Made by a program: the position numbers and the translations under genes. From contig JAIYDI010000019.1 of assembly GCA_027487555.1 (NCBI GenBank), forward strand, positions 62,001 through 126,000: a stretch of DNA of 64,000 bases, written 5' to 3'. Source of the DNA: Hyphomicrobiales bacterium (lineage in GTDB: Bacteria; Pseudomonadota; Alphaproteobacteria; Rhizobiales; Devosiaceae). This document shows positions 45,460-64,000 of this stretch, piece by piece. Under the pieces are notes generated by a model. The model was not told the origin of the DNA, did no database searches, and worked only from the letters and a program-made list of their open reading frames with translations. Within the stretch, counting starts at the first letter, position 1; each line of letters begins with the position of its first letter.

Positions 45460-45797
45460 CTGCTTCTCCCCAGCCCGGTTTCACCAACTCTAGACCCGAA
45501 GCCGCAATGGTCAAGTCGATGCGCTGACGGAGGGAACGTGTCGGCCGCGCCGGAGCGTTGTCTCGTGGTCGCGAAGATGGAAGCGAACTGTCCGGTTCCA
45601 TACAGGTCTGCGCCCAAGATGATGTGCGGATTGTCGAGGCTGCGGCAAGGCGCGAACTGACCTGAGGCCCAACTGCCGTCCGGCTTTGGGAGTTAGGTCG
45701 GCTCCAGCTTGTCTATTGCGCTTGAGACCCGTCCCGCGCGCTTGTATGGACGGCGCGCAAATCGCGTATACTACATGTCGCTTCTGGAGCCAGAGTG
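45460..45797 (+). other. Divergent promoter region, xdhC-like / gntR
   Basis: About 340 bases without a gene. A GTATAC palindrome (45766-45771) in GCGTATACTACATG lies about 30 bases before the GntR start and could be an auto-regulatory half of a GntR operator. Confidence 0.4.
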
Positions 45798-46529: not shown

Positions 46530-46677
46530 GTTGCGCGTTTTTTCATCGAGTGAGCTTTTCTGCATAATTTGTCGCCAGTCACGAGTGGGCGCTGGGTGTT
46601 CGCTCGCGTGCAGCGGGCCATCGTCTCTCGGGAAATAAGCTCGACACGCCATGGGGATGGCCGCTCCGAACAGCTGT

Positions 46678-46718
46678 GTATGCATGTTCGGATACCAAAT
46701 GGCACGCATCATGCATAC
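46678..46718 (+). promoter_or_regulatory. Operator candidate: GTATGCATG inverted repeat
   Basis: GTATGCATG (46678-46686) and CATGCATAC (46710-46718), spaced 23 bases, 35 bases before the ABC ATPase start. Each arm contains palindromic ATGCAT. A likely site for the GntR protein encoded immediately upstream. Confidence 0.55.
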
Positions 46719-46753
46719 CAGATGCTGAAGAGCCATCCGGGGTGTCGCGCCGA

Positions 46754-48322: not shown

Positions 48323-49400
48323 GCTGCGGGCGCAGCCCTCCAGAACGATGGTCTGGCTGTCGCCGATCATTGCCATCACGCTGACCTGTTGCGTCGCCAT
48401 GGTAATCTTTGCGTTGGCCGGGTTGGAGCCGGTTTCTGCTCTTGCCACTTTCATCTTCTCGCCGCTGGCGGACCTCTATTCCGTTGGCGAACTGCTCATC
48501 AAGGCCGCGCCCCTTGTCCTGATCGCCGTGGGTCTGGCCGTCGGCTTCCGCGCGGGCGTCTGGAATGTCGGCGGCGAAGGCCAGCTCATTCTCGGCGTCA
48601 TCTTTGGCGGTTTCATTGCCTTGACCTTTGGCCCCACGGGCGGCGTCTGGGTGCTGCCGGTCATGGTGGTGGGCGGAGCGATCGGCGGCGCCATCTGGGC
48701 AGGCATTCCGGCGTTCCTGCGCACCCATTTCAATGCCAGCGAAATCCTCACCAGCCTGATGCTCAACTACGTGGCGCAGCTCTGGCTGAGCTACCTGATC
48801 TTCGGGCCGTGGCGCGATCCGGCGGGGTTCAACTTCCCGCAGTCCGCGCCGCTGGCGCCGTCGGCACTGTTTCCCACCCTGATCGACGGGACGCGGGCCA
48901 ATGCCAGCATTCTGATCGCGCTGGTGGCCGTCGGCCTCGGCTGGGCGCTGATGAGCAAGAGCTTTGTCGGCTTCCAGCTCAAGGTCACCGGCCTTTCCGA
49001 GGGGGCCGCCAAGTACGCCGGATTCAGTGCCAAGCGAGCGGTATGGATCGGTATGCTGGCGGGTGGCGTCGCAGCAGGCATTGCCGGGGTCGGTGAAATC
49101 GCAGGTCCGCTCGGCCAGATTTTTCCCACGGCCTCGCCGGGTTACGGCTACGCCGCCATAATCGTGGCCTTCCTCGGTCGCCTCAACCCAATTGGCATCC
49201 TCTTCTCGGGCCTTTTGATGTCGCTGCTCTATCTGAGCGGTGACGTTGCCCAAATGTCGCTGGGGCTGCCGTCCTCGATCACCGGTCTCTTCCAGGGCAC
49301 GCTGCTGTTCTTCCTGCTCACCGCGGACGTGCTGATCCACTACCGCCTGCGCGCGACCAGCGCAGCAGGTGCACCCAAGGGAGCAGCCAATGGGCTTTGA
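48306..49400 (+). CDS. BMP-type ABC importer permease (YufP-like)
   Basis: 364 residues from the GTG at 48306. About ten membrane segments; AVGFRAGVWNVGGEGQLILG is the typical motif of this permease family (RbsC-like, nucleoside type), and GFSAKRAVWIGMLAGGVAAG and FLGRLNPIGILFSGLL support it. Overlaps the ATPase gene at its 5' end and the next permease by 11 bases. Confidence 0.94.
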   Translation: MSIRFELRAQPSRTMVWLSPIIAITLTCCVAMVIFALAGLEPVSALATFIFSPLADLYSVGELLIKAAPLVLIAVGLAVGFRAGVWNVGGEGQLILGVIFGGFIALTFGPTGGVWVLPVMVVGGAIGGAIWAGIPAFLRTHFNASEILTSLMLNYVAQLWLSYLIFGPWRDPAGFNFPQSAPLAPSALFPTLIDGTRANASILIALVAVGLGWALMSKSFVGFQLKVTGLSEGAAKYAGFSAKRAVWIGMLAGGVAAGIAGVGEIAGPLGQIFPTASPGYGYAAIIVAFLGRLNPIGILFSGLLMSLLYLSGDVAQMSLGLPSSITGLFQGTLLFFLLTADVLIHYRLRATSAAGAPKGAANGL

Positions 49401-50313
49401 TCTTCTCCCGATCCTCCTCTCTACCCTGATCGCCGGCACGCCGCTGGTTTACGCCGGATTGGGTGAACTGATCACCGAGCGGGCGGGCGTCCTCAACATG
49501 GGTGTCGAAGGCACCATGGTGACTGGCGCGGTGGTGGCCTTCGCCGTGGCGCTGACCACCGGCAACCTTTGGCTCGGCGTTCTGGCAGCCATGGCAGCCG
49601 GCGCGCTGCTGTCGCTGCTTTTTGCCGTTCTCGCCATCAGCTTTCGCGCCAACCAGCTCGCCGTTGGCCTTGCCATGACGATCTTTGGCACCGGACTCGG
49701 CTCCTATCTCGGTAGGCCATATGTCGGCATGGCGTTGGTCCAGGATGCGACCCAGGCCGGCGGCGGGCTCGCGCAACTGCCGGTCATCGGCCCGTTGTTC
49801 AGCGCCGTCCATCCGCTGATCTGGCTATCCTGGATCCTGTTTGCAGCGGTCTGGTATTTCCTCGCACGCAGTCGGGCAGGGCTGGCCCTGCGGGCCGTCG
49901 GCGAGGCGCCGACCTCAGCCCACGCCATCGGCTATCCGGTGGTGCGTATCCGCTATTGGGCCACACTCTTTGGCGGCGCCATGTCGGGGATTGCTGGGGC
50001 TTACATGTCCACGGTCTATGCCTCGCTCTGGACCGAAGGACTCATCGCCGGACGCGGCTGGATCGCCGTGGCGCTCGTTGTCTTCGCCACCTGGCGGCCC
50101 GAGCGCTGCATTGCCGGCGCCTACCTCTTTGGCGGCGCCACCATGGCGCAGCTCTTTGCGCAGAGCGCCGGTATCGGCCTGCCGTCCGAACTGATGTCGG
50201 CTCTGCCCTACCTCGCCACCATCGTCGTGCTCGTTCTCATCTCCCGGGACGCATCCCTTATGCGCCTCAGCGTCCCGGCCTCTCTGGGCAAGCCCTTCAA
50301 TCCGCAAGGGTAA
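49390..50313 (+). CDS. BMP-type ABC importer permease (YufQ-like)
   Basis: 307 residues from the ATG at 49390. Motifs ITERAGVLNMGVEGTMVTGA and RAVGEAPTSAHAIGYPVVRI identify the second permease of nucleoside/purine BMP importers. About eight to ten membrane segments. Confidence 0.94.
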   Translation: MGFDLLPILLSTLIAGTPLVYAGLGELITERAGVLNMGVEGTMVTGAVVAFAVALTTGNLWLGVLAAMAAGALLSLLFAVLAISFRANQLAVGLAMTIFGTGLGSYLGRPYVGMALVQDATQAGGGLAQLPVIGPLFSAVHPLIWLSWILFAAVWYFLARSRAGLALRAVGEAPTSAHAIGYPVVRIRYWATLFGGAMSGIAGAYMSTVYASLWTEGLIAGRGWIAVALVVFATWRPERCIAGAYLFGGATMAQLFAQSAGIGLPSELMSALPYLATIVVLVLISRDASLMRLSVPASLGKPFNPQG

Positions 50314-50354
50314 CCCGCCTCGTCCCCCGAAACGTTTCAACAGGAAGGAAGACC

Positions 50355-51452
50355 ATGTTCAACATCTCGCGTCGCAATTTCATCAAGGGGGCAGCCGCCA
50401 CTGCCATGCTTGGGAGCACCGGGCTGCCGGTCCTCGCGGCTGGCGAAAAGCTCAAGGTCGGCGTCATCCACATGGGCGCCATCTCCGACACCGGCTGGGA
50501 GTACTTCCAGGCCCAGGCGTGGCGCGCCCTGCAGGCCCAGTATCCCGATCAGGTGGAAGTCACCGTGCTCGAGAACATCGCGCAAATCCAGGACTGCGAG
50601 CGGCTGTTCCGTCAGCTCTCCACCCAGGGCCACAAGCTGCTGTTTGGCACCACGTTCTCGCAGTATGCGTCGCTGAAGAAGCTTGCGCCCACGCTGCCGA
50701 ACTCGCATTTCGAAAGCTGCGCCGGTATCGATTCCAGCGAAAACCTCGGAGTATTCGAGGGCAAACATCACGAAGGCACCTACCTCACCGGTATCGCTGC
50801 CGGCCGCATGACAAAGTCGAACGTCCTGGGCTGGGTAGGCGCCTTCCCTGTCCCACAGGTGATCTATAGCCTCAATGCCTTCCTGCTCGGCGCCCGCAGC
50901 GTCAATCCTGAGGTCGTTCTCAAGGTGGTATGGGCCAATGCCTGGGTCGATCCGGCCAAGGAAAAGGACGCCGTCGCAGCGCTTGTTTCGCAGGGTGCCG
51001 ACGTCATCTCGGGCAGCCCCAACACGCCGGTGCAGGGCCTCGCCGCCGAAGAAAAGGGCATCTGGTCGATCGGCAGCACCGGCGACTTCTCGGCTTACGT
51101 CAAGAAAGGCCAGTTGGTGTCGTTCGAACTCGATTGGAGCGCAGCGCATATCGAGGCGGCCAAGGCGGTGCTCGAGGGCACCTGGGCACCGACCAACCGC
51201 TGGCGCGGGCTGGGCGAGGGCGGCTTTGTGAAGATGACCAGCTCGAGCCCGGATCTGCCGGCCTCCGTCGCCGCCGAAATGGCCACCGCGGAAGCGGCGA
51301 TCATCGCGGGTACCCTCAATCCGTTTGCTGGTCCGATCAAGGACCAGGCGGGCGTCGAGCGCGTCGCTGCCGGAGCCGTGCTGCCGGACAACGACATCAA
51401 GGGCATGACCTGGCTGGTCGAAGGCGTGCAGGGCACTCTCCCCAGCGCCTGA
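50355..51452 (+). CDS. BMP family solute-binding protein, Tat signal
   Basis: 365 residues. The N-terminus MFNISRRNFIKGAAATAML is a twin-arginine signal; cleavage is likely after VLA/AGE. The BMP (basic membrane protein) domain shows VGVIHMGAISDTGWEYFQ, HEGTYLTGIAAGRMTKS, VVWANAWVDPAKEKDA and DVISGSPNTP. No lipobox is present, unlike many BMP proteins. Family members bind purine nucleosides or related N-heterocycles; this one feeds the importer encoded upstream. GGAAGGAAG precedes the ATG. Confidence 0.94.
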   Translation: MFNISRRNFIKGAAATAMLGSTGLPVLAAGEKLKVGVIHMGAISDTGWEYFQAQAWRALQAQYPDQVEVTVLENIAQIQDCERLFRQLSTQGHKLLFGTTFSQYASLKKLAPTLPNSHFESCAGIDSSENLGVFEGKHHEGTYLTGIAAGRMTKSNVLGWVGAFPVPQVIYSLNAFLLGARSVNPEVVLKVVWANAWVDPAKEKDAVAALVSQGADVISGSPNTPVQGLAAEEKGIWSIGSTGDFSAYVKKGQLVSFELDWSAAHIEAAKAVLEGTWAPTNRWRGLGEGGFVKMTSSSPDLPASVAAEMATAEAAIIAGTLNPFAGPIKDQAGVERVAAGAVLPDNDIKGMTWLVEGVQGTLPSA

Positions 51453-51519
51453 TCTGGCTCACCTGGGTGGCGGCCGATGTCGCCACCTGCCTTTCTTCCC
51501 GAGTTCCGGAGACGTCGAC

Positions 51520-52728
51520 GTGACGGTTGCTGACAGCCTCTTCACCAACGCCAAGCTCGCCGACGGCCGCAGGGCGAGCGTCGCCGTGACCGGCGGTCGG
51601 ATTGCCGCGATCATCTCCCCGGGCGAGGCTCTCCCCGAGGCAGGAGAAACAATCGACCTTGCGGGTGCCATGCTGGTGCCAGGTTTTGTCGAAGGTCATA
51701 TTCACCTCGACACCAGTTTCTATGGCGAGGCCTGGAAACCCCATATTCCGTGCAGCAACGGCTTTGATGTGCATGAGCGGGTCGCCTTCCAGGCGCACAA
51801 TCTCGCCAATGCCGGGCCGATCGAGACGCGGGCCCGCGACCAGCTCGAGCTCTGCGTCGCCAGCGGCACCACCAGCATGCGCAGCCACGTTATGGTCAAC
51901 GGCTCGGTCGGTCTGCGCCATCTGGAGGCGGTGCTTGCGGTACGGGAGAAGTACAAGAGTATCATCGATATCCAGCTCGTCGCCTTTCCGCAGAACGGTA
52001 TCCTGTCGAGCCCCGGCACCGCCGATCTCCTGGACCAGGCGATTGCCATGGGCTGCGATCTGGTCGGCGGCCTTGATCCGGCAACCTATGATCGCGATAT
52101 CGAGCGGCATCTTGAGATCGTCTTCGATATTGCCCAGAGACGCGCCGTCGATGTCGACATCCACCTGCATGATGGGGGCACGCTTGGCGTTTTCGAGATC
52201 GAACAGATTTGCGCCTGGACCCGCAAGCTCGGCATGTCCGGTCACGTCGCGGTGAGCCACGCCTATGGTCTCGGCGACATCCCGCCCGACCGTCAGCAGA
52301 AGATCGCCGCCACGCTCGCCGAGTCTGGCGTCGCCATCATGACCAATGCCCCCGGCGCTCACGCCTTTCCGCCCGTCGCCACGCTGCGCCAGGCCGGCGT
52401 GACCGTGTTCAGCGGTTCGGACAATATCCGAGACAGCTGGTGGCCCTATGGCGACGGCGACATGCTCGGACGCGCCAATATCATCGGCTATCGGTCCGGG
52501 TTCTACGAAGATCGCGAGCTCGAGGCTGCCTTCGATATCGTGACCTCGGCCGGCGCCCGCGCCCTGCGCCTTGAGGACTATGGCATTGTTCCCGGCGGCA
52601 AAGCCGACTTCGTCACCTTCACCGCGGCACACATCCCCGAGGCTGTGGTCGCACTCCCCAAGCATCGCTCGGTCTACAAGGCCGGCCGTCTCGTAGCACG
52701 CGACGCTAAGCCCCTGTGGCGGCCCTAG
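51520..52728 (+). CDS. Cytosine-deaminase-like amidohydrolase
   Basis: 402 residues from the GTG at 51520. Metal ligands: HIHLD in VEGHIHLDTSF, His in DVDIHLHDGG and VAVSHAYGLGD, Asp in FSGSDNIRDSWWPYGDG. The GSDNIRDSW motif and HxHxD start match the CodA-type cytosine deaminase subgroup of the amidohydrolase superfamily, which acts on cytosine, isoguanine, creatinine-like and s-triazine compounds. As last gene of the importer operon it should hydrolyse the imported heterocycle in the cytoplasm. Exact substrate unknown. Confidence 0.92.
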   Translation: MTVADSLFTNAKLADGRRASVAVTGGRIAAIISPGEALPEAGETIDLAGAMLVPGFVEGHIHLDTSFYGEAWKPHIPCSNGFDVHERVAFQAHNLANAGPIETRARDQLELCVASGTTSMRSHVMVNGSVGLRHLEAVLAVREKYKSIIDIQLVAFPQNGILSSPGTADLLDQAIAMGCDLVGGLDPATYDRDIERHLEIVFDIAQRRAVDVDIHLHDGGTLGVFEIEQICAWTRKLGMSGHVAVSHAYGLGDIPPDRQQKIAATLAESGVAIMTNAPGAHAFPPVATLRQAGVTVFSGSDNIRDSWWPYGDGDMLGRANIIGYRSGFYEDRELEAAFDIVTSAGARALRLEDYGIVPGGKADFVTFTAAHIPEAVVALPKHRSVYKAGRLVARDAKPLWRP

Positions 52729-53048
52729 AGCGCTTCGAGGAAAAGCTGCAGCACTTTTCTGGTTCGCAAGTACGACCTGGCAAAGACCTGAATCAGTTCA
52801 GCGTTTCCCTGGAAACGTGAACTGATCTGTCCCTTGGCAGCGGGTCCTGACCGATGTGCAGGACAAACCGGAACCTGCGCTGCGCAGGACGCGGCCGCCA
52901 CCGGCGCCACTCTCCAACGGCCAGGGCTCACGGTGCGCGCTAGCTACAATTCAGCCGCGGCCCCCTGTCTTTGCCATGCCCGCCTGCCGGCCGCCGGCCG
53001 CGGCAGGCGGAACGCTCAGGACGAGAGCGCTGCCGTCGCTGCAGGTCA
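52729..53048 (+). other. Convergent intergenic region with an imperfect palindromic element
   Basis: 320 bases between convergent genes. The first 100 bases resemble the dispersed non-coding palindromic elements frequent in Hyphomicrobiales (beginning TAGAGCGCTTCGAGGAAAAG). They contain a second imperfect repeat around AGGAAAAG/CTTTTCT and the hairpin at 52792-52826. The rest holds nothing I can identify. Confidence 0.5.
52792..52826 (+). repeat. 16-bp hairpin with one bulge
   Basis: ATCAGTTCAGCGTTTCC (52792-52808) pairs with GGAAACGTGAACTGAT (52811-52826), one bulged G. It lies about 65 bases after the amidohydrolase stop and may end both convergent operons. No T-run. Confidence 0.65.
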
Positions 53049-54416
53049 TCAGGATCTATGGCGCTCACAATCGAGGACGCTTTCTGGCCCGGTGATTTCA
53101 CCAGTGCCCGTCTCCGGTTCACTCGGCATGTGTTCGTCGTTGAGGGAGCTCTTGGATACACACCGTGACTTCCCCTGTCTGTCTACAATGGCGTCGACTT
53201 CCTCGAGGAAAGCCCGTCTCGGGTCATAGGCTTTCGCATAGGCCGCGAACTTTGCCGTGCCTTGCATGGGTACGCTCAGCAGCCTGCGCAGCTTCGTCGC
53301 GGTGTCGGGGTGTCCGATGTGGTTCGCCCGGAAGCCGAGCTGGTGGTGTTCGATCCGCGCGGCGTAATCGAACTGATCATAGTCATGGGGGACCGCCAGC
53401 ATGGGTTTTCCCGCGGCGATGCAGGCGCTGGCTATACCCGCCCCGCAATGATGGATCACGGCGTCGAACTCGGTCAGGTACTGGCCGTAGGGGACAAAGG
53501 CATAGGCCTCGACATTGCCTTGAGAGAAGACGGGGGTGCGCGATCGCTCCGCTGGCCTGCCGAGCGACACCACGAATTGCATATCGGGGAAAGAGGCCGA
53601 CAGCGCCCGGGCTTCGTCGATCAGGGTGCGCTTGGCCCATGGCAGATGTGTGCCGAGCGTGAGAAGAATCTTCGGGCCGGGCCTGAACTCGAGCTGCAGA
53701 GCGGGTTCCGGGTTGTCATGCAGCGGCCCGATAAACCGGACGGCGGCCGGCCAGTCCCGCTCGAATTCCAGCTCCTTGAGACCGAGGGCAAGGATCCGAT
53801 CGCGTGAGTATATGGCTTCGCTGCCATCGGGGCGGAGCCGCCTGAGCCCCATCGCCGCCATCTGGTGCCCGAACAAACCGGCGAGTAGCCCTTTGCCGGC
53901 TTTGACAGCCGCCCATCCGGCCCGGTCACGAAGCCGACCCAGCGCGCCCGGCATCGGCTGGAGCCCGCCGAGATAGCTGGGCGGACCAGTGCTCGCTTCG
54001 AGGGCGAACGGGGTGGGAAGTGTCGTTATCCAGGGCAATCCCAGAGCGTCCGCGGCAAGACCCGGCGCAACGGTGATGAAGTCGGCGATGACCAGGTCGG
54101 GCGGGTCAAGCGTCCATGCTTCCACAAGCTCATCGCGAACGGCCCGAATCGCCGCGAAGGAGGCGCGCAACTGCCGGGCGATCCGCATGGGATGAATGCC
54201 AACCCTGTGGGGCGCGTCGGCGATGGCTTCGAGCGCATCACTGCCGAGCGATGGCGGGGCGACGGCAGGCAATCCGGCCTCGGCCAGCACATCGAGCTTG
54301 GCGTGTCCCGTCACCATTTCCACAGTGTGGCCTGCGGCCTGTGCTGCGAGCGCCAGCGCAGCGAGTGGGTTCAGGTGTCCGGCGAAAGGTGGCGCCACGA
54401 ACGCAAGCTTCGCCAT
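53049..54416 (-). CDS. UGT-like glycosyltransferase (GT1/MGT family)
   Basis: 455 residues. N-terminal acceptor domain starts MAKLAFVAPPFAGHLNPLAA. The C-terminal donor-binding signature VIHHCGAGIASACIAAGKPM followed by AVPHDYDQFDYAARIE is characteristic of macrolide/zeaxanthin-type glycosyltransferases of the GT-B fold. The last 35 or so residues (after VDAIVDRQGKS) are a polar tail not typical of the family. Last gene of the six-gene lipid-like cluster; it likely adds a sugar to the product. Confidence 0.92.
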   Translation of the reverse strand: MAKLAFVAPPFAGHLNPLAALALAAQAAGHTVEMVTGHAKLDVLAEAGLPAVAPPSLGSDALEAIADAPHRVGIHPMRIARQLRASFAAIRAVRDELVEAWTLDPPDLVIADFITVAPGLAADALGLPWITTLPTPFALEASTGPPSYLGGLQPMPGALGRLRDRAGWAAVKAGKGLLAGLFGHQMAAMGLRRLRPDGSEAIYSRDRILALGLKELEFERDWPAAVRFIGPLHDNPEPALQLEFRPGPKILLTLGTHLPWAKRTLIDEARALSASFPDMQFVVSLGRPAERSRTPVFSQGNVEAYAFVPYGQYLTEFDAVIHHCGAGIASACIAAGKPMLAVPHDYDQFDYAARIEHHQLGFRANHIGHPDTATKLRRLLSVPMQGTAKFAAYAKAYDPRRAFLEEVDAIVDRQGKSRCVSKSSLNDEHMPSEPETGTGEITGPESVLDCERHRS

Positions 54417-54459
54417 CGCCTACACCGCGCTCCGGAGCCGCAGTCTCAAGGGTTTGTCC

Positions 54460-55593
54460 TCACTCATAGGTGATCCGGTCGTCGGTCATGCGGATGCGCC
54501 TACGTCGCCAGTTGAAGCGGTTGGGGCCAGCAAAGGCGAAAATGATGTGAACTGGCGTCAGGAGGTCGGCCGCCATTTCGTAAGCCACATCTGTGAGGCT
54601 GCCGGCGGGGCCACCCAGACGCTGACGAAGCAATCGGTTGGCGGCCGCCTTCGCCATGAGCAACGCCAAGGCGCCCAGCAGCCAGGGCCAGCCTGCCGCA
54701 AGGCCGATCACGATCAGCACCGGCGGCATCACGGTCGGCAGGAGGATCAGCACCATGCTGACGAAGGAATAGTTCTCCCGCACATAGCGGCTGCCGAAGA
54801 TCATCCAGCGCCGCATGATGCCGAAATAGTGCCCGGGGCCGGTGACAGTCGTGGAGATCGGGTGGAGCACGTCCGTCTGTGTGATGGGCGCTTTCATCCG
54901 GCGGAAAAGTGACGCGATGGCGTAGTCGTCGGTCAGGCTGGTGCGGATCGCCTCGAAGCCGCCGGCCCTTTCCAGCGCCGCCGTCTCGGCAACATAGAAC
55001 ATGCCGTTGATGGTGCGCGCGGCACCCAGGAGGCTGGCGGCCGGGTAGGTGAGGAGGGCGGAGCCGTTCACGAAGCCCGTCACGAGCCGCGACCCGCCAT
55101 TGCTGTGGTTGACATAGAGCGGCAGTCCGGTCGCAAGGCCCCCGGGTTCGAGGCTGGAAATGGCCCGAGCGAGGCCGCCGGGTGGCAGCACGGTGTCGTC
55201 GTCGAGCACGGCCACATAGCGCGTCTCGACAAGAGGGAAGGCGCGGGCGAGCTTGGCGACCTTGGGATTTTCTCCATCCCGTGGGGGCGGCCCCATCACC
55301 AATGTGACCCGCTGATGCAGAGGCAGGGTCTCCGCGATCGTCCGGGCCTCGAGGTCATCCTCGTCGATCAGCCAAAGGAACCGCGCCCCTGGCGTCTGGC
55401 TGAGATTGCCCGAGAGGCAGGCGGCCAAGGTTGGATCGCCGCTCAGGATGGGCTGCAGGACAGTCACTTCTCCAAGGTCGAGGGGCGTTGTCTGGTGTGC
55501 GGCGCGACGCCTGAGATACAGCCAGCCCAGGCTCGCGCGAACCGCCGTCACCAGGCCGTAGAGGACGAACAGCACTCCCGCCGCAATACTCAT
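54460..55593 (-). CDS. GT2/GT21 glycosyltransferase, ceramide-glucosyltransferase-like
   Basis: 377 residues from the ATG at 55593, overlapping the SDR stop (ATGA). N-terminal membrane helix, then a GT-A domain with DEDD (about 80), DDDTVLPPGG, TDDYAIASLFRR and the (Q/R)xxRW-type IMRRWMIF motif, as in glucosylceramide synthases and HpnI-like enzymes. Two or three C-terminal membrane segments follow. It should glycosylate a membrane lipid at the cytoplasmic face. Donor and acceptor unknown. Confidence 0.92.
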   Translation of the reverse strand: MSIAAGVLFVLYGLVTAVRASLGWLYLRRRAAHQTTPLDLGEVTVLQPILSGDPTLAACLSGNLSQTPGARFLWLIDEDDLEARTIAETLPLHQRVTLVMGPPPRDGENPKVAKLARAFPLVETRYVAVLDDDTVLPPGGLARAISSLEPGGLATGLPLYVNHSNGGSRLVTGFVNGSALLTYPAASLLGAARTINGMFYVAETAALERAGGFEAIRTSLTDDYAIASLFRRMKAPITQTDVLHPISTTVTGPGHYFGIMRRWMIFGSRYVRENYSFVSMVLILLPTVMPPVLIVIGLAAGWPWLLGALALLMAKAAANRLLRQRLGGPAGSLTDVAYEMAADLLTPVHIIFAFAGPNRFNWRRRRIRMTDDRITYE

Positions 55594-56567
55594 GCCAGCC
55601 TCATCTGCGCGGACTGCCATTGGAGAAAAGCGTTGAGGCCGTCTTCGAGGCGAACGGGTGGGACGCCTAGAAGTTGTTCAGCCTTCCGCATATCGATCGT
55701 CTTCGAATAGGCGAGGCTGGCCACCCCAAACTTCGTGACGGGTGGCTCCCGCCAGTTCTGCAGCCAGCGCGAGCGCAACTCGAACGCCCCAGCCAGGGCC
55801 ATGGCGGCTCCCACTCCGAGTTCCAGCTGCGGCTCGCGCAGGCCAAGGCGGCTAAGCACCGTGGTCAGCAAAGCGGGCGTCTCCACGGATTGTGCGTCGG
55901 CGAGGTTGAAGACACCGCTTTGGCCACTGTCCAGTATTCGCTCCAGGAACCAGCACAGGTTGTCGATATAGAGGAGGCTGATGCGCGGAACCTTGCCGTC
56001 CCGCCGCCTCAACCTGGGCAGCACGCCCTTCCGCGCCGCCTGCAGGATCCGTGGAAAGACGACAGTATCGCCCGGCCCATAGACGGCGCGGGGACGCACG
56101 ATCGTAAAGTTGAGGGGCGACGCTGCCACCATCGCCTCGCCACGACGCTTGCTGGCGGCGTAGAGGTTGATCGGATCTGCGGGCCAGGGCGTGTCTTCGG
56201 CGAGCTCCAGCTGGTCGGCAAAGGCGTACTGGACTGCGCTCGACGAGATGAAAACGAAGTGCGGAACGGCCTTTGCCTCGGCCCATGCGAGGATGTTGCG
56301 CAGGGCGAGAATGTTCGCCGCTTCATAGTCCTGCGGTGCCGCCCATGGCGAGGCGAGGGCCGCACAGTGAACGAGCACGTCGCAGGGTTCGACGGAATCC
56401 GGCAGCGGGTTGGTCAGGTCGTGCCGAATATGAATGTCGCAGGCCTCCGGTCTCGGCGGCGAGCGGCTCAGTCCGACCACTGTCGCCCTGGTGCGGTGGC
56501 GCAACCAGGCTCCCAGTGCGCCGCCCACGAAGCCGCTCGATCCGGTGATGAAGACGCGCTTGTTCAT
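55590..56567 (-). CDS. Extended SDR, NAD-dependent epimerase/dehydratase (3beta-HSD/OleD-like)
   Basis: 325 residues from the ATG at 56567. Cofactor loop VFITGSSGFVGGALG, catalytic Tyr136 and Lys140 in NLYAASKRRGEAM, Ser in FVFISSSAVQYAF. The C-terminal half resembles NAD-dependent beta-hydroxy/keto-oxidoreductases of the 3beta-HSD type, the family of OleD. In the cluster it could reduce the beta-keto product of the synthase at 58621. An NDP-sugar epimerase function is the alternative. ATGA overlaps on both sides. Confidence 0.9.
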   Translation of the reverse strand: MNKRVFITGSSGFVGGALGAWLRHRTRATVVGLSRSPPRPEACDIHIRHDLTNPLPDSVEPCDVLVHCAALASPWAAPQDYEAANILALRNILAWAEAKAVPHFVFISSSAVQYAFADQLELAEDTPWPADPINLYAASKRRGEAMVAASPLNFTIVRPRAVYGPGDTVVFPRILQAARKGVLPRLRRRDGKVPRISLLYIDNLCWFLERILDSGQSGVFNLADAQSVETPALLTTVLSRLGLREPQLELGVGAAMALAGAFELRSRWLQNWREPPVTKFGVASLAYSKTIDMRKAEQLLGVPPVRLEDGLNAFLQWQSAQMRLA

Positions 56568-57820
56568 GGCTGCCACCGCCTTTCCACCCGCCGCAGCTTT
56601 CGCGCACTGACCTCGAGCACCGGCAGGATGGTCACGTCGATCGTCGCATTTGCGCCCATCGCCCTGAGCACGGGCTCGAGCGCCGCCTTCGCTGCCTCCG
56701 CAGCAGGCGCCGAAGTCAGGCAAAGTTCCAGCCGGTTCGCCGCGGTCTGCACCAATCGGAAATCGTCGATGCCGTTGTCCGCCCCCACGATCGCGTTGCG
56801 CATCACATCGGGCGTCACTGTAATCACGCCACTCGGCCCCGGCAGATGCAAGAGGTCGTCCATGCGCCCCTCGACCTGCGCAATCGCCTGAAGCGGCGAC
56901 CCGCAGGGGCAAGGATCTGGCCGCAACCGCAGCAGGTCATTCATCCGGTAGCGCACCATGGCCTGTGTCTGTCTGCTGAAATCCGTGATGATCGGCGTCA
57001 CCAGTTCGCTACCAGGCACCGGCTGTTCGTACTCGAACTTCACGCAATCCTCGCACAGATGCAGCGTGCCGTGCTCGCAGGCGACGCCGAGCAGGCCCTC
57101 CGTCGCCATGTAGATCTCCCGTACCGTGACGCCGAAACGCCCCTCGATGATCTCGCGGTCGCGCGGGTCGAGAACCTCGGCGGCCGAGAAGACATGCCGA
57201 ACCCTAAGCAGCGGCCCGCCATGGTCCGAGAGCCAGCGCAATACCTTGGGCGGTGCAATCAGCGTGTCCGGGTCCAGTGCCCTGACGCCCTCGGCACAGG
57301 CCGGAAGCCCCTGGTGCAGGTCAAAGAACCGAAGCTTGAGCAGGCCGCCTCGTGCAGCGGCGTAGAGACTGCTGTCGCGCGGCAGGATCAGCGCAATTCG
57401 CGCCCGCCGCAGCTGCGGCATGGTCTTGGCAACCATCGTGCCCAGCCACCGCCACCGCTCCGCTTCGGAAATGACGTAGAGCCCGCGATTGCCGCTCGTT
57501 CCGGTACTGGCGCCAACATGGAACCGACCTACCCGCCCGCCCGTCTGCAGCGCCGCCCATCCCGCGTCAGCCGTGATGCGGGGCAGGTTGAAATCCGCAA
57601 AGCGCGACATCAGCAGGTGCTTATCGATGACCGGCAGGCCCTCCAATCCGGTCGCCCGGACATCTCGATAGAACTGCATTCGCGGCAGCGCGTCATGCAG
57701 CAACTGCGCCAGTTGCCGATCCTGCCAGGCCGCGATGTCGGCCCGCGTTTTCAGCATGCGCGACAGCCGCCGTGTTCGCAACCACGCCGCCAACGCCTCC
57801 CATTTCGGCCAGAAGCTCAT
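56564..57820 (-). CDS. Adenylate-forming enzyme, F390-synthetase/PaaK-like
   Basis: 418 residues, the short PaaK/F390-synthetase length. Phosphate loop FHVGASTGTSGNRGLYV (about 100), the A5-like YMATEGLLGVACEHG, the cysteine pairs CEHGTLHLCEDC and PCPCG (a zinc site in this subfamily), and RYRMNDLLRL. It activates a carboxylate with ATP. In context it may activate a beta-hydroxy acid (OleC-like lactonisation) or load an acyl group; the actual substrate is unknown. Translationally coupled to the SDR and the MBL genes. Confidence 0.9.
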   Translation of the reverse strand: MSFWPKWEALAAWLRTRRLSRMLKTRADIAAWQDRQLAQLLHDALPRMQFYRDVRATGLEGLPVIDKHLLMSRFADFNLPRITADAGWAALQTGGRVGRFHVGASTGTSGNRGLYVISEAERWRWLGTMVAKTMPQLRRARIALILPRDSSLYAAARGGLLKLRFFDLHQGLPACAEGVRALDPDTLIAPPKVLRWLSDHGGPLLRVRHVFSAAEVLDPRDREIIEGRFGVTVREIYMATEGLLGVACEHGTLHLCEDCVKFEYEQPVPGSELVTPIITDFSRQTQAMVRYRMNDLLRLRPDPCPCGSPLQAIAQVEGRMDDLLHLPGPSGVITVTPDVMRNAIVGADNGIDDFRLVQTAANRLELCLTSAPAAEAAKAALEPVLRAMGANATIDVTILPVLEVSARKLRRVERRWQP

Positions 57821-58614
57821 GCCGCCGCCCGGTCGTGGCAGAGGACTACGCGCCCGCCGGCCCCCCGAAATGCGGCGACCAGCGCCGCAGACTTCCGCAT
57901 TGCGGCCTCGTCGGCATAGATCATCCGCGCGGGACCACGCGGCAGCCGGTCATCAACTGCGTCCGACAACCACGTCGTGTCGGCCGCGTAAAGCAGAGGC
58001 GGATCGAGCTCGGGCCAGACGAGACCGAAATGCCCGGTCGCATGCCCCGGCAGGTCGATGGCGAGGCAGCGCCCATCGCCCCAGATATCTCGGCCCGCTC
58101 CAAGCCCGAATGGCGCCGGCCGCTCCGACAAGGTCTCGATCGGCAGCAGCCGGCTGGCGAAATCCTTGGGCAGGAGCTCTTTGAAGATGCCGTTGTGGAT
58201 GCGCTGCGTGTCCCGCATCCGCCTGATGGCCTCCCATGCCACCCCCGATGCGATGAAGCTCGCATTCGGAAAGTCGCGCAGCGCCGCCACATGGTCGGCA
58301 TGGAAGTGCGTGATGATGATCCGGCGCACATCGCTGGCGGAATAGCCCTCCCGGGCGAGCGCCGACAGCGGCAAGTCCGCTTCGACGAGCCGCGGCCGCA
58401 GCACGCCGCCATAGAGTTTCAACGCCAGGCTCCGTTGAGCCCCTTGGGTGGCACGCGGACCGTAGCCGGTATCGATCAGCACCGGCCCGAACTCAGGTTG
58501 TGTCACAAGACCATACCGCACTCCGACCTCGATCCACCGCCATGAGCCGCCCCGCAACACCAGACGTTCCGGTACCCTTACGGTGGCGCTGTTGATGAAC
58601 CGAGGCATGTCCAT
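57817..58614 (-). CDS. Metallo-beta-lactamase-fold hydrolase (lactonase-like)
   Basis: 265 residues. Metal site HFHADH at about 103-108, an Asp in LIDTGYGPRAT, His in LPGHATGHFGLV and Asp in YAADTTWL, the pattern of AHL-lactonase/AttM-like members. No signal peptide. In the cluster it might hydrolyse a lactone or thioester intermediate or act as a thioesterase. Starts six bases after the FabH-like gene ends. Confidence 0.9.
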   Translation of the reverse strand: MDMPRFINSATVRVPERLVLRGGSWRWIEVGVRYGLVTQPEFGPVLIDTGYGPRATQGAQRSLALKLYGGVLRPRLVEADLPLSALAREGYSASDVRRIIITHFHADHVAALRDFPNASFIASGVAWEAIRRMRDTQRIHNGIFKELLPKDFASRLLPIETLSERPAPFGLGAGRDIWGDGRCLAIDLPGHATGHFGLVWPELDPPLLYAADTTWLSDAVDDRLPRGPARMIYADEAAMRKSAALVAAFRGAGGRVVLCHDRAAA

Positions 58615-58620
58615 GGCCTT

Positions 58621-59613
58621 TCACATGACCACTGCGAGGCCGCCAAACGAAATGCCGGCAGAGGTTCCAAGCAGCAGGGCGCGCTGCCCTTTGCCAAGCC
58701 GACCCTCCATGCGCGCGACATGCAACGCCGTCGGCAGCGAAGCTGCGACCTGATTGCCGAAGTCCCGGACGATACTCACCACCGCCGCGGGCGCAAAGCC
58801 TGACCGCCGCGCCAGATGCGCCAGTGCTCCGGGGCTCGCCTGATGCGGCACTACGATATCGACGTCGCCGCGCTCCCAACCGGCCTCCGACAGCACCCGG
58901 TCGAGGAAGGCCGGAAAGTGCTTCACCGTCAGTTTGTAGAGTGTCTCGCCGCGCATCTCGAACATGGAGTGGCGCGCATAGTCCTCCGGCTGGTTGTGAT
59001 AGTCATACCGCGTTCCGCCCGAGCCGATCCGACAAGCGTCAAAGGCCGACGGATAGGTCTCCATCGCCGCTGCCGCGAGATGCGCGGTGCCGTCGCCGGC
59101 AGAGAACACAGCGGCGGCCGCGCCGTCCCCGAAAAGGGCTGCCGTAAGTGGGTCGTCGTTCCAGGGCAGGGCGCGCGAGGCCACTTCTGAGGCAACGATC
59201 AAGCCTCGCCGATATCGTCCGCTCGCCAGCAGAGACGCCAGCATGTCGAGTGCCGTCAGAAAGCTGAGGCAGGTCGAGTTGATGTCGAAGGCCGCGCAAG
59301 CGCCATCGGCGATCCCCAGCCTATGCTGGATCAGTGGCGCTGTCGCCGGGATCGACTGATAGGGTACGGCCGCTGCGAACAGGATCACATCGATCTCGTC
59401 GGGCGACGCGTCCGCCGCCTCCAGCGCCTGCCGGCCCGCATCGACGGCCAGATCAATCTGGTCCTCGCTGCCGCAATAATACCGGCTCAGCACCCCGGTC
59501 CGCCGATAGAGCCAGCCTTCCGGCCTGCCGATCCGGCCATCGAGTTGAGACGAGTGCACCATTCCCGCTGGTGTCGCCGCGCCTGTTCCATCAAGGCGTA
59601 AGGGAAGCTTCAT
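58621..59613 (-). CDS. Ketoacyl synthase III (FabH/OleA-like)
   Basis: 330 residues from the ATG at 59613; upstream in-frame starts add a Cys/Arg/Val-rich stretch that does not look native. Active Cys116 in DINSTCLSFLTAL, His257 in VVPHQASPGALAHL and Asn287 in VRDFGNQVAASLP form the C-H-N triad. It condenses an acyl starter with malonyl-ACP (FabH-like) or joins two acyl units head-to-head (OleA-like). Not the housekeeping fabH, which usually sits next to plsX. First gene of the six-gene cluster. Confidence 0.92.
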   Translation of the reverse strand: MKLPLRLDGTGAATPAGMVHSSQLDGRIGRPEGWLYRRTGVLSRYYCGSEDQIDLAVDAGRQALEAADASPDEIDVILFAAAVPYQSIPATAPLIQHRLGIADGACAAFDINSTCLSFLTALDMLASLLASGRYRRGLIVASEVASRALPWNDDPLTAALFGDGAAAAVFSAGDGTAHLAAAAMETYPSAFDACRIGSGGTRYDYHNQPEDYARHSMFEMRGETLYKLTVKHFPAFLDRVLSEAGWERGDVDIVVPHQASPGALAHLARRSGFAPAAVVSIVRDFGNQVAASLPTALHVARMEGRLGKGQRALLLGTSAGISFGGLAVVM

Positions 59614-60235
59614 CGCGCCGACACATCGCCTGACAACCAACATAAACCATAAGGGTACAGCCCAGACACAGCAATGGCGGAGACCGGATTTCAGCGGAAC
59701 GATCAAGCGGACTGACCAATGTCAGCCCTAAAGTGACGTTCGACCGCCACCCGGATGATGGCGACACGGATCAGGCGCGCGTCGCAAAGGGACCCGATGT
59801 TCGTGCTTGGGATGAGGTTGCAACGGGAGCCGAAGCCGTGCCGCCCGACGAGATCAAGGACGTCGAGGATCAGCAGGGTCATCGTCGAGAAGTCGGTGTT
59901 TGCTCCGCCCTCGCGAGGCTTTTGGAGCTAGGACATCTTGGATCGCGATATCGACGGCACGCGGCCAGTTTTGCTGTGTTCTGCAAAACCCGACCAGCTT
60001 TTCACGTCTGCTTTCGCCGGAGCATTGGCAAGAGCTGCCAGTCCCCCTTCCCACCTCATCGCGGACGCCGACATCGAGGAAGCAGACTATCTGCTTTTGC
60101 CTGCCCTCGCATGACGACCAAGGTCTGAAACTCGCGCTTGGGCGCCCCTAAACGGGTGGTGCCATTGTCCGCCTTCGGGCAAGTGGTCTTCCAGGGCAAA
60201 GGACTGGGCTCGGGGCGTAAAGCGGCTGTTCAAGC
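59614..60235 (-). other. Intergenic region upstream of the ketoacyl-synthase cluster
   Basis: About 620 bases. The promoter of the cluster must lie near 59620-59760 (minus strand). A 58-codon plus-strand frame (59938-60114) looks mildly protein-like but is not supported. No RNA gene is seen. Confidence 0.4.
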
Positions 60236-61369
60236 TTACCAGTTGGTGAGCGAGCCATCGACCCTATGGAACAGCGGCAGGGCCTCGTGCTCGAACGGGT
60301 AACGCTTCAGCCCCTCCCAATCGACCTCAAGGCCGAGTCCCGGCGCATCCGAGGGGATCAGCCAGCCATCCTCCCAGCGGTGACCGCTGACGATGATATC
60401 GGAGAGGCTCTCTCCCGGTCGCCGCGGAAGCTCCTGTACCAGCATGTTCGGCGTCGCCATGTTCAGATGCAGGCAGGCCGCGGTGGAAACCGGGCCGATC
60501 GGATTATGTACAGCAATGTCGATGAAGTGCGTTTCACACCAGCCTGCGATCTTTCTCGCCTCGGTGAAGCCGGCCGCAATGCACATGTCGATCCGGGCAT
60601 AGTCGATCAGTTCCTCTTCGATGAGAGACCGAAACTGCCACTTGGTGCCGAGTTGTTCACCGGCGGCGATCGGTACCGCGGTCTGCTCCCGCAGGCGGCG
60701 GTACGATTCCGGGTTCTCGATACGGATGGGGTCCTCGATGAACATCGGGCGGTAGGCCTCGACGCCTCGGCACAGTCGCACCGCGTCTGGCACGCTGGTG
60801 CGCGTGTGCGCATCGAAGGCCAGCTCGATGTCCGGGCCAAGCTCGCCGCGCAACAGGCGGAACGTCTCGATCGCATAGTCGACGGCCTTGTGTGGCTCGT
60901 AGATGCCGTCACCGACGGGGCCACTCGACCAGCGCAGGCAGTTCCAGCCCTCTGCCACTCTGACGCGAGCATCAGCGAGCAGTGCCTCGGGCGTGGCGCC
61001 GCCAATGTGGCAGTAGCAGTCGACCTTGTCGCGAACCTTGCCACCAAGCAACTGGTACACCGGCACGCCCAGAGCCTTGCCCTTTATGTCCCAAAGGGCA
61101 ATGTCGATTGCCGCCATCGCAGAGGTGAGGACCTGGTTGGAGGGGTGAAAGCCGCTGCGCCACATCAACTGCCACAGATGCTCCGACCGCATCGGGTCCG
61201 CGCCGACCAGCAGCGGCGCCAGCGCACTGATTATGCCAGCGACGCCTTCCTCACGCGACGTGAGTCCGCCTTCGCCAATCCCGATGAGGCCGTCGTCGGT
61301 TTCGACCTTTACAAACAGCATGGTGCGCCACTCCTTTACCAGGTGCGCAGTCACCGACGTGATCTTCAT
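60236..61369 (-). CDS. Mandelate racemase/muconate lactonizing enzyme family, galactonate dehydratase-like
   Basis: 377 residues. Enolase-superfamily barrel with Mg ligands Asp in LAFDAHTRTS, Glu in FIEDPIRIENPES and Glu in PIAAGEQLGTKW, and the catalytic His in VHNPIGPVS. N-terminal capping domain MKITSVTAHLVKEW. The pattern is that of D-galactonate/D-arabinonate-type acid-sugar dehydratases, which make 2-keto-3-deoxy acids. Downstream of an aldehyde dehydrogenase and ThuA-like gene on the same strand, but with a 537-base gap. Confidence 0.92.
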   Translation of the reverse strand: MKITSVTAHLVKEWRTMLFVKVETDDGLIGIGEGGLTSREEGVAGIISALAPLLVGADPMRSEHLWQLMWRSGFHPSNQVLTSAMAAIDIALWDIKGKALGVPVYQLLGGKVRDKVDCYCHIGGATPEALLADARVRVAEGWNCLRWSSGPVGDGIYEPHKAVDYAIETFRLLRGELGPDIELAFDAHTRTSVPDAVRLCRGVEAYRPMFIEDPIRIENPESYRRLREQTAVPIAAGEQLGTKWQFRSLIEEELIDYARIDMCIAAGFTEARKIAGWCETHFIDIAVHNPIGPVSTAACLHLNMATPNMLVQELPRRPGESLSDIIVSGHRWEDGWLIPSDAPGLGLEVDWEGLKRYPFEHEALPLFHRVDGSLTNW

Positions 61370-61906
61370 CTTTCTTTCCCTTGCTGGGGCGTGGTCAGTT
61401 CGCGGCCGGCAGCCGTCTCACAGGATGGCTCGACTGGTGGTTGGCACGTCGCCGGGTTGTCGATCGCTTTGGGCACGCTGCAGACTTGCCGTCGAACAGG
61501 GTCAATAGGGCCCAGCATGCCAACTTTTTTGGGCATTCACCAGATTCAACAATGCGCTCTGCTCTTAGGATGGCATGCGACGGCAAGGTAGACCCGACCG
61601 CTTTCGCAAAGCCTCATCGCGGCGGTTGCTTCGGCAAATGCGGATCCCGCTGTCGACGGGGTTCCTGATCGACGAGAATGAACTCCGCGTGCGCCAAAAG
61701 CTGCACTTGTTCCAAAAATATGTGCCGGACGCTCTGGAGCTGTGGACGCGGCCCCCGAGCGTCCGGCCCCTCAATCGCTTGAGGGATGCCTTGGGCCTAG
61801 GGGTGTTGGTGGACTACCTCGCAGCACCTCCGCACCCGACATGCCGTCGGTGCTGACCATTCGGATTCGGCAGCCCACACACCTGGCGCCTGCCGCGCTG
61901 AACAGT
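61370..61906 (-). other. Intergenic region between aldehyde dehydrogenase and dehydratase genes
   Basis: About 540 bases with no supported gene on either strand; long random frames exist because of high GC. It may hold an own promoter for the dehydratase gene. Confidence 0.4.
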
Positions 61907-63421
61907 TCAGATCCACGCGCCACCATGCTCCAGCACCACATAGACGTTCTTCAACGTCGAGTATTCGTCGAATCCGCCTCTTCCCAACTCTCGACCCATG
62001 CCGCTTTGTCGAAAGCCCGAGATGCCCATCTCCGGCCCACCGGTGCCCGCGCCATTGATCCACGTCCGTCCGGCCCGCACCGCGCGTATGGTCTGGACTG
62101 CCTTGCCCAGATCATTGGTCCAGACATTCGCAGATAGTCCGTAGTTGGTGTCATTGGCCAGCCTTGTCGCCTCTTCCGGCGTATCGAAGGTTTGCACTGC
62201 AAGAACCGGCCCGAAGATTTCATCCCGGGTCACCGACATATGGGCTGCTGCCTCGGAAAATATGGTCGGGGCGAAGTAGTTACCAGAATTGCTCAGTCGC
62301 CGCCCCCCCACGACCAGCCCGGCGCCGTCGCGGATGCCTTCGGTGACATAGCGCTCGACCTTCTCCATATGCGGCCGGTGGATCATCGCACCGATCTTGG
62401 TACGGGGATCCAGAGGGTCCCCCACCGTCACGTTGCTGGCGATATGCACCAGCCGCTCCAGCATGGCGTCTTTGACCTCACGCTGCACGATCATCCGGCT
62501 ATTCGAGATACAGGCCTGTCCTTGACCGCCAAAAATCGACCGGGCAATGGTGTCGGCTGCGGCTTCAAGGTTTGCATCTGCAAAGACAATGGCAGGGCCC
62601 TTGCCGCCGAGTTCCAGCCCCACGCGCTTGATGCGGGCTGCCGCCAGTCCGCCAACAATCTGCCCCACGCGGAAGGACCCGGTGAAGTTGATCATGTCAC
62701 ACGCCGGATGCTCGGCAAAGAGTTGACCGACCGGGTTGCCATACCCGGTCACAACGTTGATCACTCCGTCTGGGATTCCAGCTTCACGCGCCAGTTCTGC
62801 CATGCGGATAGTCGAGCCTGACGTGAACTCGCTCGGCTTGACCACAACACAGCATCCCGCACCGAGCGCCCATGGCACACGCTCGGACCCAATCAGGAGC
62901 GGGAAATTCCAAGGGGTGACGATGCCAACCACGCCGATGGGCTGGCGCAGCATCAGGCCCAGGGCACCGGGGCCGAAATCGTTGTGGCTTTCGCCCTCCA
63001 GCCCGCGGGCATGGCCCGCTGCATATGACCAAAGCTCGGCCGAGTAGTTCATCTCTCCCCGCGCCTGCTCAAGCGTCTTGCCGACCTCGAGACACTCGAT
63101 CAATGCCAACTCCTCGCGGTGGGCGTGGATCAGTTCGCCCAGCCGCGCAATACGTCCAGCGCGGTCAGCCCCACTCATTCGGGGCCAGTGCCCCTCGTCA
63201 AAGGCGCGGCGGGCCGCAAGTATGGCCCGTTCGCTATCCTTCGCGCTGCCGTTCGGGATCTCGGACACGATCACGCCCTCATAGGCCGGGCTTTCGCGCC
63301 TCAGAGTTTCACCGCTGGCGGCATCGACGCTTTGCCCATTGATCAGCATCTGGAACCGCATTGGAGCGGCAAAACGCGGATCGGCTTTACGTGGCTCAAT
63401 GAAAGGCGCAAGTTTGTTCAT
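61907..63421 (-). CDS. NAD(P)-dependent aldehyde dehydrogenase
   Basis: 504 residues from the ATG at 63421 (six further residues possible upstream). Cofactor and catalytic motifs: TPWNFPLLIG, VVKPSEFTSGS, FTGSFRVGQ, the Glu in GLELGGKGP and catalytic Cys in GGQGQACISNSRMI, EIFGPVLAVQTF and GGFDEYSTLKNVYVV. It likely oxidises a sugar-derived aldehyde. The start codon ends one base from the stop of the upstream ThuA-like gene. Confidence 0.95.
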   Translation of the reverse strand: MNKLAPFIEPRKADPRFAAPMRFQMLINGQSVDAASGETLRRESPAYEGVIVSEIPNGSAKDSERAILAARRAFDEGHWPRMSGADRAGRIARLGELIHAHREELALIECLEVGKTLEQARGEMNYSAELWSYAAGHARGLEGESHNDFGPGALGLMLRQPIGVVGIVTPWNFPLLIGSERVPWALGAGCCVVVKPSEFTSGSTIRMAELAREAGIPDGVINVVTGYGNPVGQLFAEHPACDMINFTGSFRVGQIVGGLAAARIKRVGLELGGKGPAIVFADANLEAAADTIARSIFGGQGQACISNSRMIVQREVKDAMLERLVHIASNVTVGDPLDPRTKIGAMIHRPHMEKVERYVTEGIRDGAGLVVGGRRLSNSGNYFAPTIFSEAAAHMSVTRDEIFGPVLAVQTFDTPEEATRLANDTNYGLSANVWTNDLGKAVQTIRAVRAGRTWINGAGTGGPEMGISGFRQSGMGRELGRGGFDEYSTLKNVYVVLEHGGAWI

Positions 63422-63422
63422 G

Positions 63423-64000
63423 TCAGTGGTCCTGTGCACTGTCCCGTGCAGCCCAGTTCAGGCCACGGCGAAGCATCAGCCGCGCCTGGGGGTGGGAGAG
63501 TTCCTCGGGCGCGTGGCCCAATGCGGTGTAGAAGATGCGCCCCCCGCCGAAATGGCGCTTGACCACGACGGGCATCGTAACGCCTCGCACGGCTGGGTCG
63601 TGTTCGCCCGAAAAGCTGGTGGTGGCCAGGACTTCGACCGAGGGGTCATAGAGCAGGTAGTATTGTTCGGACTGGTAGTCGAAATCCTCGATTCCCTGCA
63701 TCAGGGGGTCATGAGGTCGCGTCACTGTCACCCTATACTTGGCGCCCATATCGCCGGGATGGGCAACCCAGTGCAAACCGCACAGGTAGTGGAATCGCAC
63801 CGCTCCGTGAAAAGACGCCGCAAGACCACCATGGTAGCCTGCCAGGCCAGTCCCGGCGCGTACGGCGAGGGTGAGGCTGTCGACTAGCGCGGGGTCGATG
63901 TGGTCATTGGTGATGACCGGTACCACAAGGTCATAGGTGGCAGCCTCGGCCAATGCTGCATAATCAGGAGTTAGGGTGATGGCGAAGCTGTCTTCCGCCA
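63423..64000 (-). CDS. ThuA-like (trehalose utilisation-type) protein, truncated by window edge
   Basis: The minus-strand frame runs open to base 64000, so the 5' end lies outside; at least 192 residues are visible. A TTG at 63953 is internal because coding sequence (DSFAITLTPDYAALAEA) continues upstream. ThuA/glutamine-amidotransferase-like features: GTGLAGYHGGLAASF, the HPGDMGAKYRVTVTRP segment, DFDYQSEQYYLLYDP and GGGRIFYTALGHAPEEL. ThuA-like proteins occur in operons for trehalose, keto-sugars and acid sugars; the biochemical role is not settled. Confidence 0.9.
   Translation of the reverse strand, partial: AEDSFAITLTPDYAALAEAATYDLVVPVITNDHIDPALVDSLTLAVRAGTGLAGYHGGLAASFHGAVRFHYLCGLHWVAHPGDMGAKYRVTVTRPHDPLMQGIEDFDYQSEQYYLLYDPSVEVLATTSFSGEHDPAVRGVTMPVVVKRHFGGGRIFYTALGHAPEELSHPQARLMLRRGLNWAARDSAQDH

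Follow-up and report, generated by a model that had tools for sequence, protein, structure and literature searches.

We analyzed a 64,000-nucleotide stretch of a Hyphomicrobiales (Devosiaceae) genome (assembly GCA_027487555.1, contig JAIYDI010000019.1, positions 62,001 to 126,000; hereafter, the window). Between positions 53049 and 59613 its minus strand carries a cluster of six genes: a ketoacyl synthase (KAS), a metallo-beta-lactamase (MBL)-fold hydrolase, an adenylate-forming ligase, a short-chain dehydrogenase/reductase (SDR), and two glycosyltransferases (GT21 and UGT). The cluster is a real, recurrent, and uncharacterized biosynthetic unit, and the twice-glycosylating hybrid form found here was seen once. 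The six open reading frames (ORFs) are open, uninterrupted, and closely packed head to tail. In order of transcription, the features are as follows:

KAS, 58621 to 59613, minus strand: ketoacyl synthase III-type, with C115-H257-N287; counterpart of gumO
MBL, 57817 to 58614, minus strand: MBL-fold hydrolase, with HxHxDH and H191/D212/H260 kept; counterpart of gumP
Ligase, 56564 to 57820, minus strand: PaaK-family adenylate-forming ligase, TIGR02304 (F390 synthetase-related)
SDR, 55590 to 56567, minus strand: extended SDR, top NCBIfam matches OleD-type; forms a clade with GT21-type clusters
GT21, 54460 to 55593, minus strand: glycosyltransferase family 21; start picked from the ATGA overlap with the SDR
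15-codon open stretch, 54420 to 54467, minus strand: between GT21 and UGT, at the position of a gene (X) of related clusters
UGT, 53049 to 54416, minus strand: EryCIII/GT28-like glycosyltransferase, 455 amino acids

An earlier note on this DNA had described a six-gene minus-strand unit with the first five genes joined by ATGA overlaps or short gaps, and both points held, with Pfam and NCBIfam returning the families that it had named. KAS and MBL are separated by 6 bp (read from the sequence), the MBL-ligase and ligase-SDR junctions are ATGA overlaps, and the SDR-GT21 junction is a third, provided that GT21 starts at 55593; a 43-bp gap precedes UGT. The G+C content of the region is ordinary. 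Scanning the window for promoters and terminators gave no signal exceeding shuffled controls, and an Rfam search of positions 45000 to 64000 gave no match.

The earlier note had also proposed a search for conserved neighborhoods of the ligase, which uncovered a four-gene core. Seven aligned ligases served as the query for a scan of genome contigs that matched at least 560 relatives; for the top 80 of these, flanking sequence was fetched to a maximum of 9 kb on either side of the ligase, and genes were counted by tblastn (a greedy ORF caller, which miscalls genes in high-GC DNA, served as a lead only). KAS, SDR, MBL, and ligase were all present in 75 of the 80 loci, and their co-occurrence therefore exceeds chance. 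Most full cores (62) read KAS-SDR-MBL-ligase on one strand, while 12 had a divergent ligase and one was irregular. Among the five loci without a full core, four had a ligase starting within ~1.8 kb of a contig end, and the contig of the fifth (L064) stops ~110 bases beyond the ligase. The window likewise has its ligase beside KAS, SDR, and MBL, in the order KAS-MBL-ligase-SDR. Its exact six-gene order was found in none of the 87 loci of one survey and none of the eight loci of another; the closest arrangements were KAS-MBL-SDR-GT21-X-UGT, in six loci, and a rearranged set in Fusobacterium.

Core clusters with a TIGR02304 ligase are mostly alphaproteobacterial, with others in Escherichia coli and Paenibacillus. 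Their proteins are up to 62% (KAS), 58% (MBL), and 55% (ligase) identical to those of the window, but they differ from it in gene order, in the genes that accompany the core (here called finishing genes), and in the SDR (no more than 37% identity; median, 33.5%). Loci labeled Flavobacteriaceae (L094) and Sulfopaludibacter (L039) come from metagenome bins, have genes that fall among alphaproteobacterial rows, and were excluded as additional phyla. Ligase matches occurred in 77 plasmid records; among the six of these whose neighborhoods were read, the core was found in Shinella, E. coli, Ketogulonicigenium, Paenibacillus, and Rhizobium, and in Pseudomonas sp. Leaf58 it was dispersed across ~10 kb. 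A Sphingomonas core locus (L073:9001-18196) contains, on the opposite strand, an additional partial match to the ligase.

The 75 full cores differed in their finishing genes. A census by tblastn, run at 1e-8 with between one and three queries for each gene type, which distant versions may escape, found ATP-grasp, GNAT, and Rieske genes together in 46 cores, ATP-grasp with GNAT in 8, and ATP-grasp alone in 1. DUF3419 was found in 6, in three by itself and in the other three accompanied by GNAT and/or Rieske. A sulfotransferase was the only finishing gene in 2, and 5 had no tested type; GT21 and X were found in none of the 75. UGT was the only finishing gene in 7 cores, none of which had ATP-grasp or GNAT. 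This replacement of other finishing genes by UGT agrees with the suggestion of the earlier note that glycosyltransferases decorate the product. Six of the seven UGT-only loci (L035, L050, L052, L070, L082, and L084) belong to Maricaulis, Hyphomonas, and related bins. To judge from gene content, these alphaproteobacterial loci may represent a simpler glycosylated version. In E. coli, the core is part of a seven-gene island with PAP2, a fatty-acid-hydroxylase-family protein, and a desaturase (L027:6173-13054; L113:4001-10882). Of 5426 complete genomes, 672 contained a matching stretch, with at least 80% query coverage in 671, and in the one chromosome read it sits between narI and a tRNA-Tyr pair. 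The carriers include E. coli 83972, an asymptomatic-bacteriuria strain. We found no paper on this island in open-access text.

Residues associated with catalysis are kept throughout the core proteins (rows shorter than 180 amino acids were excluded from these alignments). MBL belongs to PF00753, and all 93 rows share its metal ligands H103, H105, D107, H108, H191, D212, and H260. Y136 and K140 of the SDR are invariant in 92 of 92 rows. In NCBIfam, the SDR matches two OleD-type models best (113.1 and 104.2 bits, below the 580-bit cutoff; the SDR of an Asticcacaulis core scores 204.8 bits), in line with its earlier description as an OleD-like extended SDR. The ligase scores 276.3 bits against TIGR02304, above the curated cutoff of 251.9, and has no match in Pfam. 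Its motifs G107-T108-S109-G110, E241-G242, D295, G318-R319, and D322 are invariant in 90 of 90 rows, and a set of 29 rows shows no variation at C248, H254, C304, and C306. The top fold match of the ligase model (predicted local distance difference test [pLDDT], 91.6) was 6siy, which has the NatL2 sequence (Z, 26.0; 3.0 Å; 288 residues aligned), effectively tied with PaaK1 (Z, 25.6). As modeled, and by its nearest solved sequences, the ligase is a PaaK-family enzyme and not a canonical OleC, as the earlier note had recognized.

The KAS (PF08541/PF08545, KAS III) bears most directly on the chemistry. Of the proposed triad C116-H257-N287, the histidine and asparagine stand, and the nucleophile is C115 when counted from the Met at 59613. 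None of the three residues varies in any of the 86 family rows; the length limit had reduced the alignment from 90 rows, and the E. coli KAS, which was among those omitted, aligned separately at 36%. OleA has the same Cys-His-Asn triad, but so do FabH, PpyS, and others, and the triad is hence nonspecific. According to the available part of PMC4578411, a glutamate acts as the base in OleA (E117, contributed by the partner subunit) and PpyS (E105), and MxnB and CorB have a valine (V94) in its place. Using CorB V94 (same partial source) to locate the column within an ungapped alignment block, we found I88 at this position in the window KAS and, across the 86 rows, I in 56, L in 29, and M in 1. 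The closest solved sequences were FabH of Neisseria (E = 7e-50), MxnB (2e-46), and CorB (2e-45), compared with ~1e-19 for OleA. The KAS model (pLDDT, 91.6) matched MxnB best (Z, 43.9; 2.0 Å; 320 residues aligned), with FabH of Aquifex at 42.9, CorB fifth at 42.0, and the best OleA at 39.8 (2.1 Å; 312 residues aligned). By sequence and fold, the KAS is nearer to FabH and MxnB/CorB than to OleA, and membership in OleA is rejected on account of the replacement of the glutamate in every row.

These results affect two explanations of the cluster. By enzyme class, its four core proteins have parallels in OleA, OleD, OleC, and a hydrolase, and an OleABCD-like pathway would have the KAS condense two acyl chains head to head, the SDR reduce the product, the ligase form a beta-lactone, the MBL open it, and the glycosyltransferases decorate the two-tailed product. 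The OleD-type matches of the SDR are consistent with this, as are the nearest solved relatives of the MBL, which are N-acyl homoserine lactone (AHL) lactonases. However, OleA-like condensation is unsupported because the catalytic glutamate is absent from all 86 rows and the KAS is nearer to FabH, MxnB, and CorB. The window further differs from OleABCD in its PaaK-like ligase, its MBL-fold hydrolase, and its glycosyltransferases, and genomes with gumO/gumP-type clusters (see below) do without a TIGR02304 ligase. We consider this explanation unlikely. The OleA-like logic of the earlier note was only partly right, its OleA-like synthase was not supported by the comparison, and the beta-lactone product that it envisaged gained no direct support. 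Alternatively, the KAS could couple two beta-ketoacyl chains in the manner of MxnB and CorB, yielding an alpha-pyrone-like lipid that would later be opened, reduced, and glycosylated. Both enzymes are among the top three solved sequences for the KAS, MxnB is its best fold match, and both share with it the absence of the glutamate that PpyS retains (PMC4578411, in part). Against this, FabH structures lie just one Z unit below, the best sequence E value belongs to the Neisseria FabH, and, unlike the MxnB, CorB, and PpyS systems, the six genes include no polyketide synthase that would provide beta-ketoacyl chains. Such a route seems improbable.

The two glycosyltransferases connect the window to a second type of cluster. 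GT21 matches PF13506 at 88 bits (cutoff, 21.7) and the HpnI model at 70.5 bits (cutoff, 310); it shares family GT21 with ceramide glucosyltransferase and HpnI, but no sphingoid or hopanoid gene is among the six. UGT (PF06722, EryCIII-like) has 455 amino acids, compared with 412 to 441 across six relatives. GT21 is rare: among 398 genomes of the phylum, only the window's own and one other (G651) matched at 1e-15, and among 299 of the order of G651, 7 matched at 1e-25, namely, G651 and six genomes of one genus. KAS-MBL-SDR-GT21-X-UGT was found in G651 and five of these six. The sixth species (L130) has a decayed KAS-SDR-GT21-X-UGT copy in broken pieces with no MBL match. A Fusobacterium vincentii locus runs classical SDR, GT21, X, OleD-type SDR, MBL, ligase, KAS; UGT had no match there at 1e-4. 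Among plasmid records, one (Fusobacterium) matched GT21, none matched UGT, and 85 matched the SDR, with 31 to 37% identity among the 12 matches listed (three of these 12 from Streptomyces). Gene X adjoins GT21 (L114:11100-11747, L117:10352-10906, and L126:8408-9016), is also present in L125 and L127 to L129, and encodes a family of 185 to 215 amino acids. The members tested (two in one search, one in another) had no Pfam match. Invariant Ser, Asp, and His residues, shared by six rows, may form a hydrolase triad. The window lacks X, and the GT21-UGT interval holds just the 15-codon open stretch, possibly a remnant of X.

In the locus read in detail (L126), the KAS comes after genes for a MOP flippase, GumK, pyruvyl and WecG-type transferases, and a gumN-family protein, and UGT is followed by dxs on the opposite strand. 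The cluster thus occupies the gumO-gumP position of a gum locus, between the gumN-family gene and dxs; the Xanthomonas-type label rests on the gum genes of that one locus. In Xanthomonas, gumO (3-oxoacyl-ACP synthase) and gumP (metal-dependent hydrolase) directly follow gumN (PMC4468381, in the part available). By family and by position in this locus, KAS and MBL correspond to gumO and gumP. Of the L126 proteins, KAS is 47%, MBL 33%, SDR 40%, GT21 33%, and UGT 40% identical to those of the window; five of the six genes are shared, but the window has the additional ligase, lacks X, and has a KAS and MBL that fall with alphaproteobacterial loci. The gum names raise the possibility that the genes are accessory to a surface polysaccharide, as the position of one homologous cluster between gumN and dxs would suggest. 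We regard this as highly unlikely: in the accessible portions of the literature, a role of gumN, gumO, and gumP in xanthan was never demonstrated (PMC2585010), and the three genes are missing from several xanthomonads (PMC5554336, PMC4046712, PMC4408752; see also PMC4468381). Furthermore, no gum genes were seen directly beside the window cluster, whose closest neighbors look, from their translations, like transport and catabolic-type genes. The earlier description of the cluster as undescribed holds in that no characterized pathway with this gene set was found in open-access text among the top-ranked papers for broad queries; it does not hold for the KAS and MBL counterparts, which already had names. 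Novelty therefore holds for the product, within reach of that search, and gumO and gumP are existing gene names without a shown function in the portions of those sources available.

As judged from protein comparisons, the window cluster is a hybrid: its KAS, MBL, and ligase are of the alphaproteobacterial type, and its SDR-GT21-UGT block resembles the one in gumO/gumP-type clusters. Its median identity to other loci was typical for KAS (51.2%, compared with 47.6% all against all), MBL (45.8 and 41.9%), and ligase (48.6 and 48.8%), whereas the SDR was an outlier (33.5 and 47.1%), the second lowest of 84. Quick trees with SH-aLRT support were built for three proteins from chosen rows (SDR, 39 of 92; KAS, 38 of 90; MBL, 40 of 93). 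The window SDR grouped with six GT21-type rows (support, 100), in a clade with the gumO/gumP type. Its KAS grouped with one Asticcacaulis and three Rhizobium loci (support, 97), and its MBL fell inside a set of 24 mostly alphaproteobacterial rows (support, 100). Forcing the window together with the GT21-type rows was rejected by the approximately unbiased (AU) test for KAS (P = 0.00058) and MBL (P = 0.00004); the KAS test is less clean, as its rejection partly reflects L117, a GT21-type row separated from the other five in that tree. Inheritance of the six-gene set as one block is rejected by the SDR versus KAS and MBL trees.

The six-gene cluster is accessory DNA. At a threshold of 0.001, TIGR02304 had a match of some kind in 14 of 136 genomes of the family (own included), and a score above the cutoff was reached in the window's own genome alone; of 385 genomes drawn evenly from the class, 2, again including its own, had ligase matches at 1e-50. 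A DNA search of 41 genomes (its own and 40 relatives) matched the whole segment in its own alone. Some match occurred in 18 of the 41, mostly short and either outside the six genes or to a dispersed repeat, and the longest within the six genes was ~670 bases of KAS at 64% (G002). A sister species (G094) aligns on the left at 88.6% over 5.7 kb up to ~52692 and on the right at 91.7% over 1.2 kb from ~60223; these flanks lie on two contigs, and the six genes are absent from the alignments. A hybrid origin, the 15-codon stretch in place of X, and the absence of the cluster from the relatives searched would all be expected of a nonfunctional assemblage that lost X and makes no product. The six open frames, kept catalytic residues, and intact ATGA couplings argue otherwise, and we find this quite unlikely.

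The reading that we prefer, while stopping short of calling it probable, is that the cluster specifies an accessory pathway in which a hydroxy-acyl lipid is made and then glycosylated twice. The folds, relatives, and kept motifs of KAS, MBL, and ligase make condensation, hydrolysis of a thioester or lactone, reduction, carboxyl activation, and two glycosylations the likeliest series. The KAS would condense an acyl thioester with a malonyl- or beta-ketoacyl-type partner in a Claisen condensation, the MBL would free the product as a beta-keto acid (or open a lactone), and the SDR would reduce the beta-keto acid to a beta-hydroxy acid. The ligase would then adenylate the carboxylate and join it to coenzyme A, a hydroxyl, or an amine, after which GT21, at the membrane, would put a first sugar on a free hydroxyl, and UGT would attach a second. 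Several observations weigh against this pathway. The closest solved relatives of the ligase use aryl acids, and a small aromatic or pyrone product may be made instead. No TIGR02304 ligase was matched in any of the seven gumO/gumP-type genomes, and the ligase is therefore either dispensable there or replaced by something else. In addition, the six genes include no carrier protein or transporter, the form without X was seen once, and the commonest finishing set, ATP-grasp with GNAT and Rieske, fits poorly with simple head-group transfer to a hydroxyl.

More broadly, KAS, SDR, MBL, and ligase may constitute a portable anchor-making core whose exchangeable neighbors set the head group. GT21, UGT, sulfotransferases, BtaA-type DUF3419 proteins, and PAP2 head-group enzymes belong to families that act on hydroxyls, and the frequent occurrence of such families among the finishing enzymes is the best clue that the core product may be a hydroxyl-bearing anchor. 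It is possible, if doubtful, that the core, with or without the ligase, is an unrecognized pathway to a polar-lipid anchor built on neither glycerol nor a sphingoid base. By analogy with diacylglycerol and ceramide, such an anchor could carry sugars, sulfate, a BtaA-type or PAP2-transferred group, or the product of ATP-grasp and GNAT enzymes. If so, it would be made by many Alphaproteobacteria, xanthomonads, Fusobacterium, Paenibacillus, and the E. coli strains with the island (672 of 5426 complete genomes), and one testable function would account for three orphan sets: gumO/gumP, the TIGR02304 ligases, and the E. coli island. The swaps of finishing genes would then amount to a natural experiment in which the core is constant and the head groups differ, with a shared anchor mass expected across strains.

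The cluster is flanked by an amidohydrolase-type gene (51520 to 52728) and a mandelate-racemase-type gene (60236 to 61369), both named from their translations. A dispersed repeat of ~100 bases lies at 52720 to 52830; six more copies were listed in the same genome at 76 to 79% identity, and shorter matches occur in further genomes of the genus.

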